Source: Gimesia algae (GTDB lineage: Bacteria; Planctomycetota; Planctomycetia; Planctomycetales; Planctomycetaceae). From it: a stretch of DNA of 64,000 nucleotides. The notes beneath the pieces were generated by a model, which saw nothing but the letters and a program-made list of their open reading frames with translations, did not search any database and had not been told where the DNA came from. Below, in pieces: positions 19,983-36,192 of this stretch. How positions within the stretch are numbered: the stretch's first letter is position 1; each line of letters starts with the position of its first letter. The position numbers and the translations under genes are program-made. The stretch covers positions 2,593,369 through 2,657,368 of the forward strand of contig NZ_CP036343.1 of NCBI RefSeq assembly GCF_007746795.1, written 5' to 3'.

Positions 19983-20350
19983 TCTGTAACTCACTGCTTG
20001 AGGTACACTTTTGACATTCATCAAACCAGGCCAGGCGTTACTTCAAGCAGCAATCGAACAACTACTGACCGGGAACGGCAGTTCGCATTGAAATGCGTGA
20101 GCTGAATATTTACTCCCCGCTGCCTTAATTCCCCTGGGACCTGCTTCCCCGGTCCGCATACCGTTCCCGATAATGACTTCGCTGGAACTCTCTGATTTTG
20201 GGTCAATTCTTCATTTTTCAGTTGACAATATTTCAAAACCACACAATGATATATCATGATATATATTTTACCCCTATAATATAACTCGTTGACTTACAGG
20301 GTTATCCTTTTGTGAGTTCTTATTTTTACACCTCATCGGGAGACTTGGAA
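19983..20350. other. Intergenic region before the DUF1559 operon
   Basis: 368 bases without a gene. It holds a long-range inverted repeat (CTGCTTGAGGTA near 19996 with TACTTCAAGCAG near 20038, 11 of 12 paired), a second pair GGGAACGG/CCGTTCCC, and the operator-like palindrome at 20249-20264. A leader with RNA structure before the DUF1559 gene is possible. Confidence 0.5.
20222..20266 (+). promoter_or_regulatory. Palindromic operator and possible -35 box upstream of DUF1559 operon
   Basis: The perfect 16-bp palindrome ATATATCATGATATAT lies at 20249-20264, 85 bases before the likely DUF1559 start. A TTGACA box at 20222-20227 lies upstream, but the -10 is not clear. Fourteen of 16 bases match the palindrome in the GntR promoter at 18049-18064. 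Confidence 0.55.
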
Positions 20351-21259
20351 ATGACGACACGACATCGAGATACAGAAACGGCTACCAGGGGCTTTACCTT
20401 AATCGAGTTACTGGTCGTGATCGCCATCATCGCGATTCTGATTGCACTGCTGCTGCCCGCGGTTCAGCAGGCTCGTGAATCAGCGCGTCGCAGTACCTGC
20501 AAAAACAATCTCAAACAGCTTGGGCTCGCACTGCACAACTACCACGACTCTCACAGCATGTTCCCCTTTGGTCGCAGTTATACCGACAATTCCACTTCCG
20601 CTCCGCAGAACTTCGGCTCTCAAATGTGCTCCACCATGCTGCTTCCTTTTCTCGATCAGACGAACGTTTACAATCAGTTCAATTTCCTGGCAGCGTTTAA
20701 TCACTCTTCGAATGCACCGATTACCCAAAACAAAATCAACGTGTTCCTCTGCCCCAGCAATCCACAGGATGAGGGCCTGAACTGGACAGGGGCTGGAGGT
20801 CCCGACGACTCCTGGGGCAGTCACTATCAGCCAGTCGCGCATAGCGGCCGAGATGGAAACCCCGCACGGGACGGACAAGACGCGGTCGGTTTTAATAAGG
20901 ACGGCATGTTTTACCGTAATTCAAAAACCAAATTCCGCGACGTTCTGGATGGTACCAGTAATACACTGGCATTCGCGGAAACGGTGGGCGATGCCCCTGG
21001 CTCGCATGAAATCTTTGCCTGGGGCTCCTACGGCGGCGGTGGCATTGGCGTGCGCAGCGGGATCAATGCCAACTTTCCCCTGCTCACGGGCTGGAGCTGG
21101 AACGGCGATGATTTTACCGGCCCCGGCAGTTATCACACCGGGGGCTGTCACTTTCTGATGGGAGATGGTGCCGTCCGGTTCATTTCTGAAAATATTGACC
21201 TGGGAACACTGCAGGATCTGACAACCCGCGCAGGTCGTGAAGTCATCGGAGAATTCTAA
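20351..21259 (+). CDS. DUF1559 pseudopilin-like protein
   Basis: 302 residues from ATG 20351; a GTG 39 bases upstream is possible. The N-terminus has the type IV prepilin/pseudopilin cleavage and methylation motif [14 protein letters not shown], then a hydrophobic helix and QQARESARR. The body ends with the H-X9-DG motif ([12 protein letters not shown]) and VRFISENID. This is the planctomycete-expanded DUF1559 family. Members are thought to be exported or assembled by type II secretion/pilus-like machinery, but the function is unknown. It opens a unit with the small lipoprotein and the BNR gene downstream. Confidence 0.93.
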
Positions 21260-24466: not shown

Positions 24467-27400
24467 ATGAAACTCTTGTCTTCATTCGCTTTCCTGATCA
24501 TCGGTTGTGCTTTCTCAACACCTGCGTCAGCAGACTGGCCGCAATTTCGCGGAGATGCGGCCCGCAGCGGCTACACCGAAGCCCCCCTGCCCAACCGCAT
24601 GGAACTGCAATGGACGTTTCGGACAAAACACGCTCCCGCTCCCGCCTGGCCAACGCATACCCGCATCAAGTTTGATGAAGTTTTTCAGCCCATCATTGTC
24701 AATCAGACGGTGCTGTTCGGCAGTTCGGCTGATGACCAGCTTTATGCCCTGGATCTGAAAACGGGAGAATTGAAATGGAAATTCTTCACTGAAGGCCCGA
24801 TCCGTTTTGCACCGGCGGCCTGGAAAGACCGCGTGTTTGTCGCCAGCGATGATGGCTGTCTTTACGCGCTGGCCATCAAAGACGGTGCTCTGCTCTGGAA
24901 AAAACAGGGAGGCCCCGAGAAAAAATATATCATGGGCAATGATCGGCTCATTTCACACTGGCCTGCTCGTGGCGGCCCGGTGGTGCATGGAGACCAGGTT
25001 TATTTTGCGGCCGGTATCTGGCCTTCCGATGGTGTTTATCTCTACGCCCTGGATGCGGAAACCGGAGACGACGTCTGGCAGAACCAGAATTCCGGTCAAC
25101 TCCTGATGAATCAGCCTCACGGTGGTGCATCCGCGAGAAGTGGCGTCTCCTCCCAGGGTTATCTGGCTGCCAGTCAAGACCAGATCTTTATGCCCACCGG
25201 ACGCGCAGTTCCCGCGGCCTTTGAACGGGCCAGCGGTAAGTTTCAATATTATCATCTGCAGAAGAACCAGCAGCGCGGCGGTTCGGATGTCGTGCTCGCC
25301 GATCAATTTTTCTGTAACGCAGGTTGTCTTTACGATCAGACGAACGGCGACCTGACACAACAAACGGGTACCGGCCCGATGGTGGCTACCCCCCAAGGCA
25401 TTCTTCGCGGTAATGGCCAGTCCCTGATTTACAGCCAATGGTCAGATACACAGACTCGTGACCGCAAAGGAAAGCCGATTTCTGTCAGACAGCTTAAAGA
25501 GAAACGACTCATCCCCCTGGATTACACCATCACCGATGTCATTGTGGCGGGTAATGATGCGTATTGTGGTTCTCATAACAAAGTAACTGGCGTCGACTTT
25601 AAAGCACAGGCAAACTCCTGGTGGTCACATGAAATTGAAGGGACGGTTCGTGGCCTGGCGGCGGCGGATGAATGCCTCATCGTCAGCACCGACCAAGGCA
25701 GCATCAGCTGTTTCGCCAATGCGGAACCACGGGAAGAAAACAACGTTATTCCCGCCAGTCCTCTCGCGACAGATCCTGTTTCTCAGAAAGCCGCTCAAGC
25801 GATCTGCAATCAAACGGACGTCAAGACTGGCATCTGCGTCGACCTGGGTGCCGAAAACGCCAGGCTGGCTCTCGAACTGGCCCGGCAATCAGAATTACAG
25901 ATTTATGTCGTTATGCAAGATGCTGAAAAAGCAACGGCCGCGCGTGAACTCTTGCACGAAGCAGGCCTGTATGGCTCGCGAGTCGTCGTGCATATCGCGA
26001 ATCCGGAGCAGGCTCCTTACTCTAAGAACTTTGCGAATCTGGTGATCTGCTCTACTTCTCTGAAGCAGGACGTGAGCCCGCAACTGCTGCAGGAAGCCCG
26101 TCGCCTTCAACGTCCGTATGGAGGACAGCTCTGCTGGGGACCTGTGGAAAAACTGCAGGTAGAAACCAAAGCTGACCTGAAAGGGGCCGGCAGTTGGACT
26201 CACCAGTATTCCAATTCTACAAACACGGTCAACTCCGATGATGAAATCGTCAAAGGACCACTCAAAATGTACTGGTACCGTGATGTCGATTTCCAGATTC
26301 CCAATCGTCACGGCCAGGGTCCCGCACCGCTGGTGAATCGGGGCGTGATGGTTGTGGGCGGTCTGCATGGCTTATGCGGTCTCGATGCTTACAACGGACA
26401 TACGCTCTGGAAATACAAGCTCAAGAATAATCTCACTGACATGAATGGCATTCACCATGATGTCAGCACCGCGGAAGTGGGTAGCAACTTTTGTCTGGGA
26501 GGTGACTATGCTTTTGTCTGCAAGGACGAGTTCTGTCATCAGATTGAATTGAAAACCGGCAAACTGGTGAGAAAGATTTCTACGCCCGTCAGCCGTGACG
26601 ATCCGAATCAGAACTGGGGCTATCTGGGTTATCATCAGGGTGTGATCTATGGTACCGTCAGCAATGACGCACATTACACCAGCCCCCGCTACAAAGGCCT
26701 GACACTGCGAAACGAATCCGTTCTGTTTTACGCCATTGACGCCAAGACCGGAAATGTGCTCTGGACTTATCAGCCCGAATATTCGATTCGCAACAACGCG
26801 ATCACCATCGGCAACGACAGTGTATTTCTGGTCGACCGGGAAATCGCTAAAGCTGACCACATCAAAGAAGCACGGCGAAACGGACGCCCCAATCCGCCCT
26901 CTGCTGAAGATGCTCAGCGCAAAGGGAAGCTCAAAGCATTTCAGGCCAAAACCGGTAAGGATCTCTGGGAGGATGACCAGGACGTCTTCGGCACCCAGTT
27001 GGCGGTTTCAGAGGACCATGAAATCCTGCTGATGTTCTATCAGGGAATCCGACATAAGTTTTTCAGGCTTCCCTCCGAAGTCGGCGGTCGCCTGGCCGCC
27101 ATCGATGCGAAGTCTGGAAAGCGAATCTGGGATATCAAAGCGGAGTACCAGTCGCACCCTATCATCAATGGCGACAAGATCTATGCACAAGGCGGTGCCT
27201 GGGAACTGAAGACGGGGACCCCCGTGGATTTCCAATTCGACCGATCTTATGGCTGCGGACAGATCTCCGCGAGTAAGCATATGATGGTCTTTCGCTCGGC
27301 TACACTTGGATATGTTGATCTGACCCGCAAAGCAGGGGTAGAAAACTTCGGGGGTATCCGCCTGGGTTGTTACATCAATGCCATCCCCGCTGGCGGCCTG

Positions 27401-27481
27401 GTGCTCGTTCCTGATGGTTCATCCCAGTGTAACTGCTCCTACCAGATGCAGGCCTGGTTCGCACTGGAGGGGAGCGAGTGA
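24467..27481 (+). CDS. Large secreted PQQ-type beta-propeller protein with internal Rossmann-like segment
   Basis: 1,004 residues with a signal peptide (MKLLSSFAFLIIGCAFSTPA) followed by DWPQFRGDAARSGY, the usual start of planctomycete PQQ-like propellers. Propeller repeats such as LYALDLKTGELKWKF, LYALAIKDGALLWKK, LYALDAETGDDVWQ and FYAIDAKTGNVLWTY occur in both halves. Between about residues 440 and 565 lies a non-propeller segment with a methyltransferase-like Rossmann pattern (GICVDLGAENARLALELAR, then IYVVMQDAEKATAARELL). PQQ-dependent catalysis is not shown; many such proteins are structural or bind other ligands. It stands alone, more than 180 bases from its neighbours. Confidence 0.85.
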   Translation: MKLLSSFAFLIIGCAFSTPASADWPQFRGDAARSGYTEAPLPNRMELQWTFRTKHAPAPAWPTHTRIKFDEVFQPIIVNQTVLFGSSADDQLYALDLKTGELKWKFFTEGPIRFAPAAWKDRVFVASDDGCLYALAIKDGALLWKKQGGPEKKYIMGNDRLISHWPARGGPVVHGDQVYFAAGIWPSDGVYLYALDAETGDDVWQNQNSGQLLMNQPHGGASARSGVSSQGYLAASQDQIFMPTGRAVPAAFERASGKFQYYHLQKNQQRGGSDVVLADQFFCNAGCLYDQTNGDLTQQTGTGPMVATPQGILRGNGQSLIYSQWSDTQTRDRKGKPISVRQLKEKRLIPLDYTITDVIVAGNDAYCGSHNKVTGVDFKAQANSWWSHEIEGTVRGLAAADECLIVSTDQGSISCFANAEPREENNVIPASPLATDPVSQKAAQAICNQTDVKTGICVDLGAENARLALELARQSELQIYVVMQDAEKATAARELLHEAGLYGSRVVVHIANPEQAPYSKNFANLVICSTSLKQDVSPQLLQEARRLQRPYGGQLCWGPVEKLQVETKADLKGAGSWTHQYSNSTNTVNSDDEIVKGPLKMYWYRDVDFQIPNRHGQGPAPLVNRGVMVVGGLHGLCGLDAYNGHTLWKYKLKNNLTDMNGIHHDVSTAEVGSNFCLGGDYAFVCKDEFCHQIELKTGKLVRKISTPVSRDDPNQNWGYLGYHQGVIYGTVSNDAHYTSPRYKGLTLRNESVLFYAIDAKTGNVLWTYQPEYSIRNNAITIGNDSVFLVDREIAKADHIKEARRNGRPNPPSAEDAQRKGKLKAFQAKTGKDLWEDDQDVFGTQLAVSEDHEILLMFYQGIRHKFFRLPSEVGGRLAAIDAKSGKRIWDIKAEYQSHPIINGDKIYAQGGAWELKTGTPVDFQFDRSYGCGQISASKHMMVFRSATLGYVDLTRKAGVENFGGIRLGCYINAIPAGGLVLVPDGSSQCNCSYQMQAWFALEGSE

Positions 27482-27671: not shown

Positions 27672-28541
27672 ATGAAATTTTTGATTGCGTTTGCAGCTGT
27701 CGCCATATTGATTGCGACGGGAGTCTCTTCTCATCCGCCACGTGACCAGAGAGATCGGGGCTGCCAGCGACCGGAGGGGCCCCCTCCTGACCCGTTTATG
27801 ATTCTGTTTGATACTGACCAGGATGGCGAGATTTCACCCCGGGAAATCGAACAGTCAGGCTCTGTGCTCAAGAAACTGGACCGTGACCAGAGTGGCACAC
27901 TGACACGAAATGAAATGCCACGCCCCCCACATCCTCCACGAGATCATCAACCCGGTGAGAGTCATCACCGACGACCAGGAGCCAATCGCCCCCCTCGCCG
28001 CAGAGCAGAACCAATGCCAGACCAAAGACCACAGAAAGCATTCTCAAAAAACACGCCCGCTGACACGGTCATTTTCACAGGCGGTTACGAAACGGATCCT
28101 CGCGATCACGGACGCCCTGTCACTCTGATTGCCGCGGCACTCGGCGTGAAACCGGAAGTCTTTCGACAGGCATTCAGTAACGTGAAACCGGCACGAGGCG
28201 GTGACCCTTCACCTGCAAGGGCGCGAGCTAATAAAGAAGTCCTGATGGCAGCTCTTGGTAAACATGGTATTTCTGACGATCGGCTGGATACCGTTTCCAA
28301 TTATTATCGCTATCAGCCTGAGCGTGGAGGGCTCTGGAAACATACACCGGCCACCGCCCAGGCCATAATCAAAGAGGGAAAGGTGACCGGCTTGCAGATC
28401 ACCAATGCAGGTTCAGGTTATATGACGCCTCCCACAGTAACGATAGCAGGCCATAAGGAAGTGAAAGTACAGGCGACACTCGAATTCAGTCAGGACTTTT
28501 CAAAAAATGGCAGCATCAAGTCACTGATCATCGTGAATTGA
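27672..28541 (+). CDS. Secreted EF-hand protein
   Basis: 289 residues with a signal peptide (MKFLIAFAAVAILIATGVSS). Two adjacent EF-hand loops, DTDQDGEISPRE and DRDQSGTLTRNE, around residues 50-80 suggest calcium binding. A basic, proline-rich linker follows (about 85-125, PRPPHPPRDHQP and similar). The C-terminal 160 residues (VTLIAAALGVKPEVFRQAF, then LQITNAGSGYMTPPTVTIAG) end with a segment seen in other secreted beta-rich proteins. The role is unknown. The ATG at 27672 follows GGGAG. Confidence 0.8.
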   Translation: MKFLIAFAAVAILIATGVSSHPPRDQRDRGCQRPEGPPPDPFMILFDTDQDGEISPREIEQSGSVLKKLDRDQSGTLTRNEMPRPPHPPRDHQPGESHHRRPGANRPPRRRAEPMPDQRPQKAFSKNTPADTVIFTGGYETDPRDHGRPVTLIAAALGVKPEVFRQAFSNVKPARGGDPSPARARANKEVLMAALGKHGISDDRLDTVSNYYRYQPERGGLWKHTPATAQAIIKEGKVTGLQITNAGSGYMTPPTVTIAGHKEVKVQATLEFSQDFSKNGSIKSLIIVN

Positions 28542-29066: not shown

Positions 29067-30041
29067 TTAATACTCACCAAGTACGTTTCCATCGTCAATC
29101 GACAGCAGGTTCAGATAAGTATTCTGATCCACATTTTCGGAGACGAATCGTACCGAACCATCAGCCAATGTCACATGCACACCCCCCACATGGAAGCTGC
29201 GTGCCCCTTGACCGGCACCGGCACCTGTGATGTCTGCATTATTACGCCGATTAAAATTCTTATCTGTAGTATTATTTGAAGCATAAGGAGTACCATCAGT
29301 GACCCTGGTTGTATTGGGAGTCAGGATACCGTTGTTGTTTCTCCCGCTGAACAAGGCTCCGGTACACCAGCCCCAGGCACCTTTGTCGTCACCCGTGTTG
29401 GTTCCCACTACGATTTCCGACAGCATGATTGCATTAGAGGTACCATCAGTAATATCGCGAATTTTGGCACCGTTCTGGGCGATCGGACTGAAAATACCAC
29501 GGCGGGTGCTGTTGAAGTCGGAAATGTTCAAACTCGAACCAGCGCCGACAGAACCAGCATAGGTAATTTTGGAAAAGTTTCCATCTGCTGGTTGAGTCAA
29601 TAAATAACGATCAATGCCTGGTTGAGAGGGACAACGCAGGATCGGAATCTTCGCCTGAAGTACGCTGTCCGAGGTGTTTGAATTCGCACTTTGAGCAGGC
29701 AAAGTCATGTTGTATTTATTGTACAAAGGAGCCTGATCCATGAATGGCAAAACCTGAACAACCCAGGTGGTTCCCCAGCTAGCATGCCGCCCATCGGCAG
29801 GCGCTGAACCAATACCATACCACACAGCTCCCGGAGGAAAGGTGCGATGTGTATCGGCGTAGTTGTGCAACGCCAGTCCAATTTGCTTCAGACTGTTTTT
29901 ACAGGTACTCCGACGGGCTGCTTCACGTGCCTGTTGGACAGCGGGAAGTAACAGCGCAATCAGAATCGCGATAATGGCAATGACCACCAGCAATTCGATC
30001 AATGTAAAACCTCGCTTGAGTGAGACGTTCTTCGATCTCAT
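29067..30041 (-). CDS. DUF1559 pseudopilin-like protein
   Basis: 324 residues. Prepilin motif [15 protein letters not shown] at residues 10-24, [14 protein letters not shown], and the late H-X9-DG motif (HVGGVHVTLADG) with VRFVSENVD. The start MRSKNVSLKRG is short and suits a prepilin leader. It is the first gene of a minus-strand pair with the small lipoprotein; no BNR gene follows this copy. Confidence 0.93.
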   Translation of the reverse strand: MRSKNVSLKRGFTLIELLVVIAIIAILIALLLPAVQQAREAARRSTCKNSLKQIGLALHNYADTHRTFPPGAVWYGIGSAPADGRHASWGTTWVVQVLPFMDQAPLYNKYNMTLPAQSANSNTSDSVLQAKIPILRCPSQPGIDRYLLTQPADGNFSKITYAGSVGAGSSLNISDFNSTRRGIFSPIAQNGAKIRDITDGTSNAIMLSEIVVGTNTGDDKGAWGWCTGALFSGRNNNGILTPNTTRVTDGTPYASNNTTDKNFNRRNNADITGAGAGQGARSFHVGGVHVTLADGSVRFVSENVDQNTYLNLLSIDDGNVLGEY

Positions 30042-35280: not shown

Positions 35281-36192
35281 ATGTTGCTGATTAATAACGA
35301 AAAACGACGTCGTGGATTCACTTTAATCGAGTTACTGGTGGTGATTGCCATTATCGCGATCCTGATCGCCCTCCTGCTGCCTGCGGTCCAGCAGGCCCGC
35401 GAAGCGGCCCGCCGCTCATCCTGTAAAAACAATTTCAAGCAGGTCGGACTGGCTTTGCATAATTACCACGACACATTTACTGCCTTTCCCATCGGGGCAG
35501 GCATCAGTGGAGGATGCAGTGGCTACTCGGGTGCCCATCTGTTTTCCTGGGGCGTGCGAATTCTACCTTATCTCGATCAGTCAAATATTTACAACAACCT
35601 CAACTTTTCCGGCTCGACTCCCTTCGTACCAGCAAACTTCAATTCCAGTACCTGCCTTGCTCCCGTTCAGCCCTTCCTCTGCCCCAGTAACCCACAACCT
35701 GATACCATCGTCAACAGGGCAGGCGCTTTTGCCGGCGCGCTACCAAACGGTATGGGTAGAACCGATATGGGAGGCGTTGCCGACTCGATCAGCTGGAAAT
35801 GCAACAGTGGCTCCGGTGTGCGTCCGACTTCGGTGGGTAATGGCGTCCTGTTTGCCATCTCGCGAGTCAAAATGCGTGATATCATTGATGGTGCCAGCAA
35901 CACACTGATGGTCGGAGAAGTTACAGGTTCTCTAGCCTCTTCCGGTCTCAACGGTAACTCTTATACCGGTTACGATGTCTTCGACACCAGCAACGGTATC
36001 AACAGCATCGACACTGTTCCTGGCGGGGGCACATTTGCTTTTCGCCCCCAGGGATTCTCCAGCTTTCACGTTGGTGGAGCCCATTTTGTGCTCGGCGATG
36101 GCTCCGTTCGCTTCATCTCGGAAAACGTCGATCAAGGCACACTCTCCGGAATTAGCACCCGAAATGGACGCGAAGTTGTAGGTGAATTCTAG
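35281..36192 (+). CDS. DUF1559 pseudopilin-like protein
   Basis: 303 residues. Prepilin motif [15 protein letters not shown] right after a short basic leader (MLLINNEKRRR), [14 protein letters not shown], and the end motif H-X9-DG (HVGGAHFVLGDG) with VRFISENVD. First gene of the second DUF1559 - lipoprotein - BNR cassette. Confidence 0.93.
   Translation: MLLINNEKRRRGFTLIELLVVIAIIAILIALLLPAVQQAREAARRSSCKNNFKQVGLALHNYHDTFTAFPIGAGISGGCSGYSGAHLFSWGVRILPYLDQSNIYNNLNFSGSTPFVPANFNSSTCLAPVQPFLCPSNPQPDTIVNRAGAFAGALPNGMGRTDMGGVADSISWKCNSGSGVRPTSVGNGVLFAISRVKMRDIIDGASNTLMVGEVTGSLASSGLNGNSYTGYDVFDTSNGINSIDTVPGGGTFAFRPQGFSSFHVGGAHFVLGDGSVRFISENVDQGTLSGISTRNGREVVGEF

Follow-up and report, generated by a model that had tools for sequence, protein, structure and literature searches.

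The open reading frame at positions 24467..27481 (+ strand) of the window, this being the whole stretch of 64,000 nucleotides of DNA that was analysed, starts with ATG and specifies a protein of 1,004 aa, which is probably (at a probability of about 0.72) an exported scaffold of two propellers joined by a non-catalytic pseudo-methyltransferase domain acting as a joint. The protein is laid out as a signal peptide, a first propeller, a methyltransferase (MT)-derived domain and a second propeller. The chain would be exported by Sec and would fold outside the cytoplasm into two separate PQQ/BamB-like propellers, and the joining domain would descend from a class I SAM-dependent methyltransferase, its fold having been kept and its SAM-holding residues replaced in the window lineage. 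Those replacements which are fixed among the orthologues of the window protein (the window group), namely Ala465 and Met483, would fill the pocket. The domain, being a unit with the C-terminal propeller, most probably has a structural role in setting the geometry between the two propellers, leaving binding of a partner protein or a glycan presumably to the propellers. The export signal (read by eye), the ancestry of the domain, its position between the propellers, its motif loss and the constraint on its sequence come from sequence and computation.

Residues 1-22 (MKLLSSFAFLIIGCAFSTPASA; 24467..24532, + strand) read by eye as a Sec-type signal peptide, with a helix at residues 4-15 in the predicted model and with no twin Arg (RR) in the first 30 residues, and the window protein therefore appears to be exported. 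A signal peptide was also called, by a crude home-made rule, in 75 of 89 sampled relatives, a set that is non-random since it consists of the window protein, its paralogues, near-identical congeneric orthologues (4 rows belonging to the window group) and relatives from 60 hand-picked matching regions. Among the 14 members without a signal call, L109, L110, L129 and L134 are truncated by the end of their contig, L017, L102, L107 and L115 visibly begin hydrophobic, and L055 is frame-split; in this last case, which derives from a metagenome assembly, two overlapping frames (L055:5974-8992) occur at the start of the MT domain, possibly due to an assembly error. Sec exports chains unfolded, and therefore no SAM or other cofactor would travel out with the domain; methyltransferase domains normally act where SAM is made, and no SAM supply outside the cytoplasm is known. 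Four Cys (residues 930, 968, 988 and 990, the last two forming CxC; 27254..27436, + strand), located in the last part of the C-terminal propeller, are invariant in 41/41 aligned relatives and would possibly suit disulfides outside the cytoplasm, or a metal site.

The sequence-only reading had pointed to a nucleotide-binding, methyltransferase-like segment at about residues 440-565, quoting residues 455-473 (GICVDLGAENARLALELAR) and 481-496 (VVMQDAEKATAARELL), and this assignment is borne out by Pfam, by PDB sequence and profile matches and by all 14 window-group orthologues. Residues 436-566 (25772..26164, + strand) are predicted to be a Rossmann domain derived from a class I methyltransferase. 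When the whole protein is searched, Methyltransf_25 matches residues 458-552 with an E value of 5.5e-5 and 24.2 bits, just below the 27-bit cut-off, and the PDB entry 3dlc (a putative SAM-dependent methyltransferase) matches residues 435-546 (phmmer, E 0.002). The isolated segment passes the Pfam cut-offs, scoring 28.1-28.4 bits for Methyltransf_25 and 24.3-24.7 for Methyltransf_11 (cut-off 21.2), and both families are matched by 14/14 window-group orthologues at E <= 0.01. A profile made from these 14 segments, none of which has the canonical motif, retrieves 3dlc at E 2.9e-8 and two further methyltransferase entries at 0.0043 and 0.022, and a profile built from 16 members across the family retrieves 3dlc at 9e-10 as the sole match up to 0.01, with 12 of those 16 members individually matching Methyltransf_25 at E <= 0.01. 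The resemblance of the segment to Rossmann-type methyltransferases in such profiles is above chance, and the proposed comparison with class I methyltransferases has, at the level of sequence profiles, turned out in favour of the assignment. An NAD-type Rossmann domain was considered and is disfavoured, the Pfam and PDB matches of the segment being nearly all methyltransferases; in addition, the intact relatives have both D-x-G-x-G-x-G and an acidic residue at the close of strand 2, which is the pattern of methyltransferases.

The elements predicted by AlphaFold for residues 437-557 follow a methyltransferase-like beta-alpha order and do not form blades, these being helix 437-449, strand 454-460, helix 466-474, strand 476-483, helix 486-498, strand 506-510, strand 525-528, helix 538-547 and strand 554-557, with a pLDDT of 66-85 per ten-residue block of the MT domain. 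The model as a whole, for which 12 sequences were used as input, has a middling overall confidence (mean pLDDT 66, pTM 0.49) and carries little information on inter-domain packing; a single-sequence structure model (mean pLDDT 35) was useless, rendering structural comparison on it meaningless.

With regard to the cofactor site, motif I of the window protein (residues 455-465, GICVDLGAENA; 25829..25861, + strand) reads D459-L-G-A-E-N-A465 in place of the (D/E)xGxGxG of an enzyme, such that the first Gly is kept, the second is replaced by Glu and the third by Ala. The acidic residue ending strand 2, the ribose contact in class I methyltransferases, is replaced by Met483 (25913..25915, + strand), which is identical in 14/14 window-group orthologues. 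The suggestion that the cofactor residues may be degenerate therefore holds for the window lineage. Conservation of these Gly and acidic residues, which had been proposed as a check, gave a divided outcome, as they are lost in the window lineage and partly retained in the family: among the 89 members, Gly461 is present in 82, Gly463 in 42, Gly465 in 50 and the full GxGxG in 34, with an acidic residue at position 483 in 72 and Asp or Glu at 459 in 22. A paralogue in the same genome (L013, 45% identity) has DVGCGDG, i.e. the canonical form, together with Glu at the acidic position. This gene (L013:1461-4505, at 61.7-68.0 kb of its own genome) has kept both the canonical motif I and the acidic residue in 10/10 of the congeneric sequences aligned, and the preservation of a cofactor motif in such a Sec-exported protein is without ready explanation.

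The history of the motif was followed on a quick tree calculated from the C-terminal propeller only, without the MT core, the columns of which begin in the linker just before this propeller. It comprises 87 of the 89 rows (L148 was removed by hand and L140 fell under the length limit) and was built with no bootstrap or outgroup, with 19 of 84 inner branches being weak and the L018 branch very long. The window group is placed within an 11-row clade (support 100) together with L050, L055 and five Verrucomicrobiaceae-type rows; L050 and L055, the nearest rows outside the window group, have GxGxG and the acidic residue intact, and the five Verrucomicrobiaceae-type rows have kept the acidic residue with GxGxG being absent. 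Across the 87 rows at least 18 changes are required for GxGxG and at least 11 for the acidic residue. Considering that 100 shuffles of the labels, performed for GxGxG only, gave a mean of 26.7 changes and a minimum of 21, GxGxG follows descent yet is frequently gained or lost. Given that methyltransferases carry the motif, the most parsimonious history would be that of an intact ancestral motif which was lost in the window lineage and in others, the direction of change being inferred, as the tree is unrooted.

The median dN/dS within the window group is 0.151 for the MT segment (45/91 pairs usable), 0.080 for the N-terminal propeller (58/91) and 0.050 for the C-terminal propeller (59/91), the respective values for the L013 group being 0.131 (18/45 pairs), 0.130 (27/45) and 0.042 (22/45), where dS is near saturation, so that these values can be trusted to within an order of magnitude only. 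As estimated in this manner, the MT segment is under purifying selection, though of a looser kind than that acting on the C-terminal propeller. At the level of individual columns, the L013 group shows no variation in 8 of 9 motif positions, as compared to 61 of 122 positions elsewhere in the MT segment (Fisher p 0.035), and the corresponding numbers for the window group are 6 of 9 versus 50 of 122 (p 0.17). The six positions which have a single residue type in 14/14 window-group orthologues are 459, 460, 462, 465, 483 and 485, with positions 461 and 463 each displaying four residue types. Fixation of Ala465 and Met483 beside variable positions 461 and 463 would fit a filled or re-tuned pocket better than free drift.

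The 6/9 invariant motif columns of the window group imply that the site may be re-specialised and not merely decayed, and from this arises the main rival to the joint reading, according to which the pocket would have been re-tuned to an extracytoplasmic compound (e.g. a nucleoside or an aromatic metabolite), with the propellers transmitting or presenting the ligand. The old cofactor site possessing invariant residues of its own, and an MT dN/dS well below 1, speak for such a pocket; the most variable positions, 461 and 463, being precisely glycine positions of motif I speaks against it, and packing constraints explain invariant hydrophobic residues equally well. This explanation is possible, and we regard it as unlikely. 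It speaks against the joint reading that GxGxG is found in 34/89 members and the acidic residue in 72/89, and that the motif columns of the L013 group are nearly all invariant (8/9), so that the pocket cannot be dismissed as a mere relic in the family as a whole. A broader proposal, somewhat more doubtful still, is that Planctomycetes and Verrucomicrobia have a large exported propeller family in which an extracytoplasmic SAM- or nucleoside-binding domain is still functional in the motif-intact members, the window lineage having since lost or re-tuned its site.

The joint reading places the MT-derived domain between two separate propellers. In the original description the segment lay buried within one propeller and interrupted its two halves, and this is not supported. 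The N-terminal propeller (residues 23-420; 24533..25726, + strand; PQQ_2 E 1.3e-34) is of the eight-bladed PQQ/BamB-like type, and in the predicted model residues 25-420 alone superpose on whole eight-bladed propellers with Z scores of 29-33 among the 50 rows shown, including tetrathionate hydrolase (Z 32.6, rmsd 2.8, 320 aligned), the designed Cake8 (6tjg; Z 31.9, rmsd 2.6, 297 of its 320 residues aligned) and BamB (Z 29-31). The N-terminal part is accordingly modelled as a whole, closed eight-bladed PQQ-like propeller; the lists of structural matches are filled by this propeller and are uninformative on the MT segment and the C-terminal propeller.

The C-terminal propeller (residues 573-1004; 26183..27478, + strand), which is also seen in the strands of the model, is homologous to the N-terminal one by hhalign (probability 97.7, columns 2-190 versus 6-203), the first residues of both being aligned and their starts, GSWTHQYSNSTNT and DWPQFRGDAARSG respectively, being similar. 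A shifted register scores nearly equally (97.5), as is expected of repeats. The model has a low pLDDT at residues 570-617 and 954-1004, and closure of the C-terminal propeller is therefore only putative.

The arrangement of domains in relatives is informative here (positions in L018, L148 and L123 being numbered from the stop that precedes the frame or from the frame's own start). A swapped order is seen in paralogue L018 of the window's genome (L018:1746-4775), with the MT domain at 53-162, the C-propeller at 181-590 and the N-propeller at 637-1021, and likewise in L148 (L148:652-3774), with the MT domain at 32-137, the C-propeller at 183-395 plus 521-594 and the N-propeller at 626-805. In L123 the MT domain (182-302) is followed by a complete C-propeller (349-770, covering columns 1-427 of the profile), and profile comparison of domains found no N-propeller match; upstream of its MT domain this gene (L123:1661-4003) specifies a short N-terminal region without Pfam match, possibly FN3-like by eye. 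The MT domain and C-propeller thus constitute one movable unit, and the wording of two propeller halves is therefore to be dropped in favour of an MT-derived domain that, as judged from sequence and model, links two separate propellers. That both flanks form one large propeller, truly interrupted by the MT domain, is very improbable: the weakness of the model at 570-617 and 954-1004, leaving C-terminal closure putative, is what can be said for it, and it has to contend with an N-terminal part that on its own covers entire eight-bladed propellers, with the swapped order and with L123.

Other members of the family carry additional domains. Laminin-G domains precede the MT domain in L133 and L122; in L136 the MT domain is preceded by a propeller, by laminin-G and by a weak match to a purple-acid-phosphatase N-domain; and malectin domains are located at the C-terminus of paralogues L014, L015 and L016. 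Malectin in some paralogues and laminin-G in some members hint at glycan binding. Paralogue L016 (L016:1373-4273, 966 aa) has a diverged MT-like segment and has kept malectin, with much of the C-propeller seemingly missing.

An active exported methyltransferase which uses periplasmic SAM would be suggested by exported relatives such as L013, given that these carry the full DxGxGxG and the acidic residue. The window protein itself is without motif I and without this residue, no supply of SAM is known in the periplasm, and only 24 residues separate GG553 from W577, as compared to a median of 49 in 55 longer relatives. This leaves little room for the helix and hairpin with which a full methyltransferase ends, and these are probably missing in the window branch. 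An active enzyme is even less probable than a single interrupted propeller. Shortness by itself is no proof of inactivity, because GxGxG is present in 19 of 34 short members (versus 15 of 55 long ones) and shortness and motif loss are hence separate matters. Finally, that the segment consists of further propeller blades or of a chance pattern, an outcome by which the original Rossmann assignment would have fallen, is scarcely credible, as no supporting point was found for it and it is opposed by the Pfam and PDB profile matches, by the predicted beta-alpha order and by an hhalign probability of 0.1-0.2% (i.e. no similarity) between the MT profile and both family propeller profiles.

At least seven places in the window's genome match the family profile (10 of 33 candidates scored). 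Within the window's phylum, 52 of 294 genomes yielded matches (40 of 209 when counted by genus), and so did 10 of 145 genomes in the phylum to which the Prosthecobacter relative belongs, that relative's own genome included; the window's own genus and the centre genome are counted in these two tallies, and copy numbers represent lower bounds since only part of the candidates was scored (10 per genome in the window's phylum and about 21 in the Prosthecobacter phylum). Eleven stretches of viral contigs match one peptide pattern, with 0/11 encoding a relative, and no record among 34 matching plasmid records covers 80% of the query; among the 20 listed of these 34, matches extend over at most 27% of the query and are all located in the N-terminal propeller.

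When nine loci were compared (E 1e-8), no neighbour was common to the Gimesia-type loci (window and L048) and the other seven; the five Verrucomicrobiaceae-type loci share several neighbours among themselves, and L050 and L055 share none. The genomic context of these nine loci points to no function. The downstream protein in the window (27672-28541) has an EF-hand-like stretch, FDTDQDGEIS, and a homologue is located directly downstream in L048. Three pilin-like genes with a common N-terminal stretch are present in the window at 20312-21259, 29067-30041 and 35281-36192.

An exported family with an MT fold, in which the motif is either intact or changed, represents a natural series for the role of a Rossmann domain that no longer has access to its cofactor, as well as a direct test for any SAM-like ligand in the planctomycete periplasm. 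The motif-intact exported relatives are the interesting part of this series; if the family were indeed partly functional in binding SAM or a nucleoside, this would imply an extracytoplasmic cofactor pool or a nucleoside signal. No description of the MT-plus-propeller architecture was found in the literature, as represented by titles and abstract openings in a collection with most subscription journals outside its coverage. The component families are already known, and there is no proof that their combination is undescribed.

Among known systems, class I SAM-dependent methyltransferases (Methyltransf_25/Methyltransf_11; 3dlc) resemble the window domain in profile and in strand-helix order over about residues 436-566; in contrast to these enzymes, the window domain lacks the second and third Gly of motif I and the acidic residue of strand 2, is short after strand 5, is exported and is fused to propellers. 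The BamB/PQQ_2 eight-bladed propellers are alike in their Pfam PQQ_2 match and in the whole-domain structural match of residues 25-420, whereas the window protein has two propellers and an extra domain; membership of BamB itself was rejected, as the NCBIfam equivalog cut-off is missed (80.2 versus 285.2 bits). PQQ-dependent alcohol dehydrogenases have related propeller blades, and a vicinal disulfide is a hallmark of PQQ-dependent dehydrogenases. Membership of this group was likewise rejected, the score being 82.3 bits versus a cut-off of 480.05 and the protein having neither a vicinal Cys-Cys nor a CxxCH haem site. The closest comparison is with the motif-intact L013 paralogue group of the same genus, which at 45% identity has the same architecture, the same length and, by eye, a signal peptide, and which, unlike the window protein, has retained DVGCGDG and the acidic residue.
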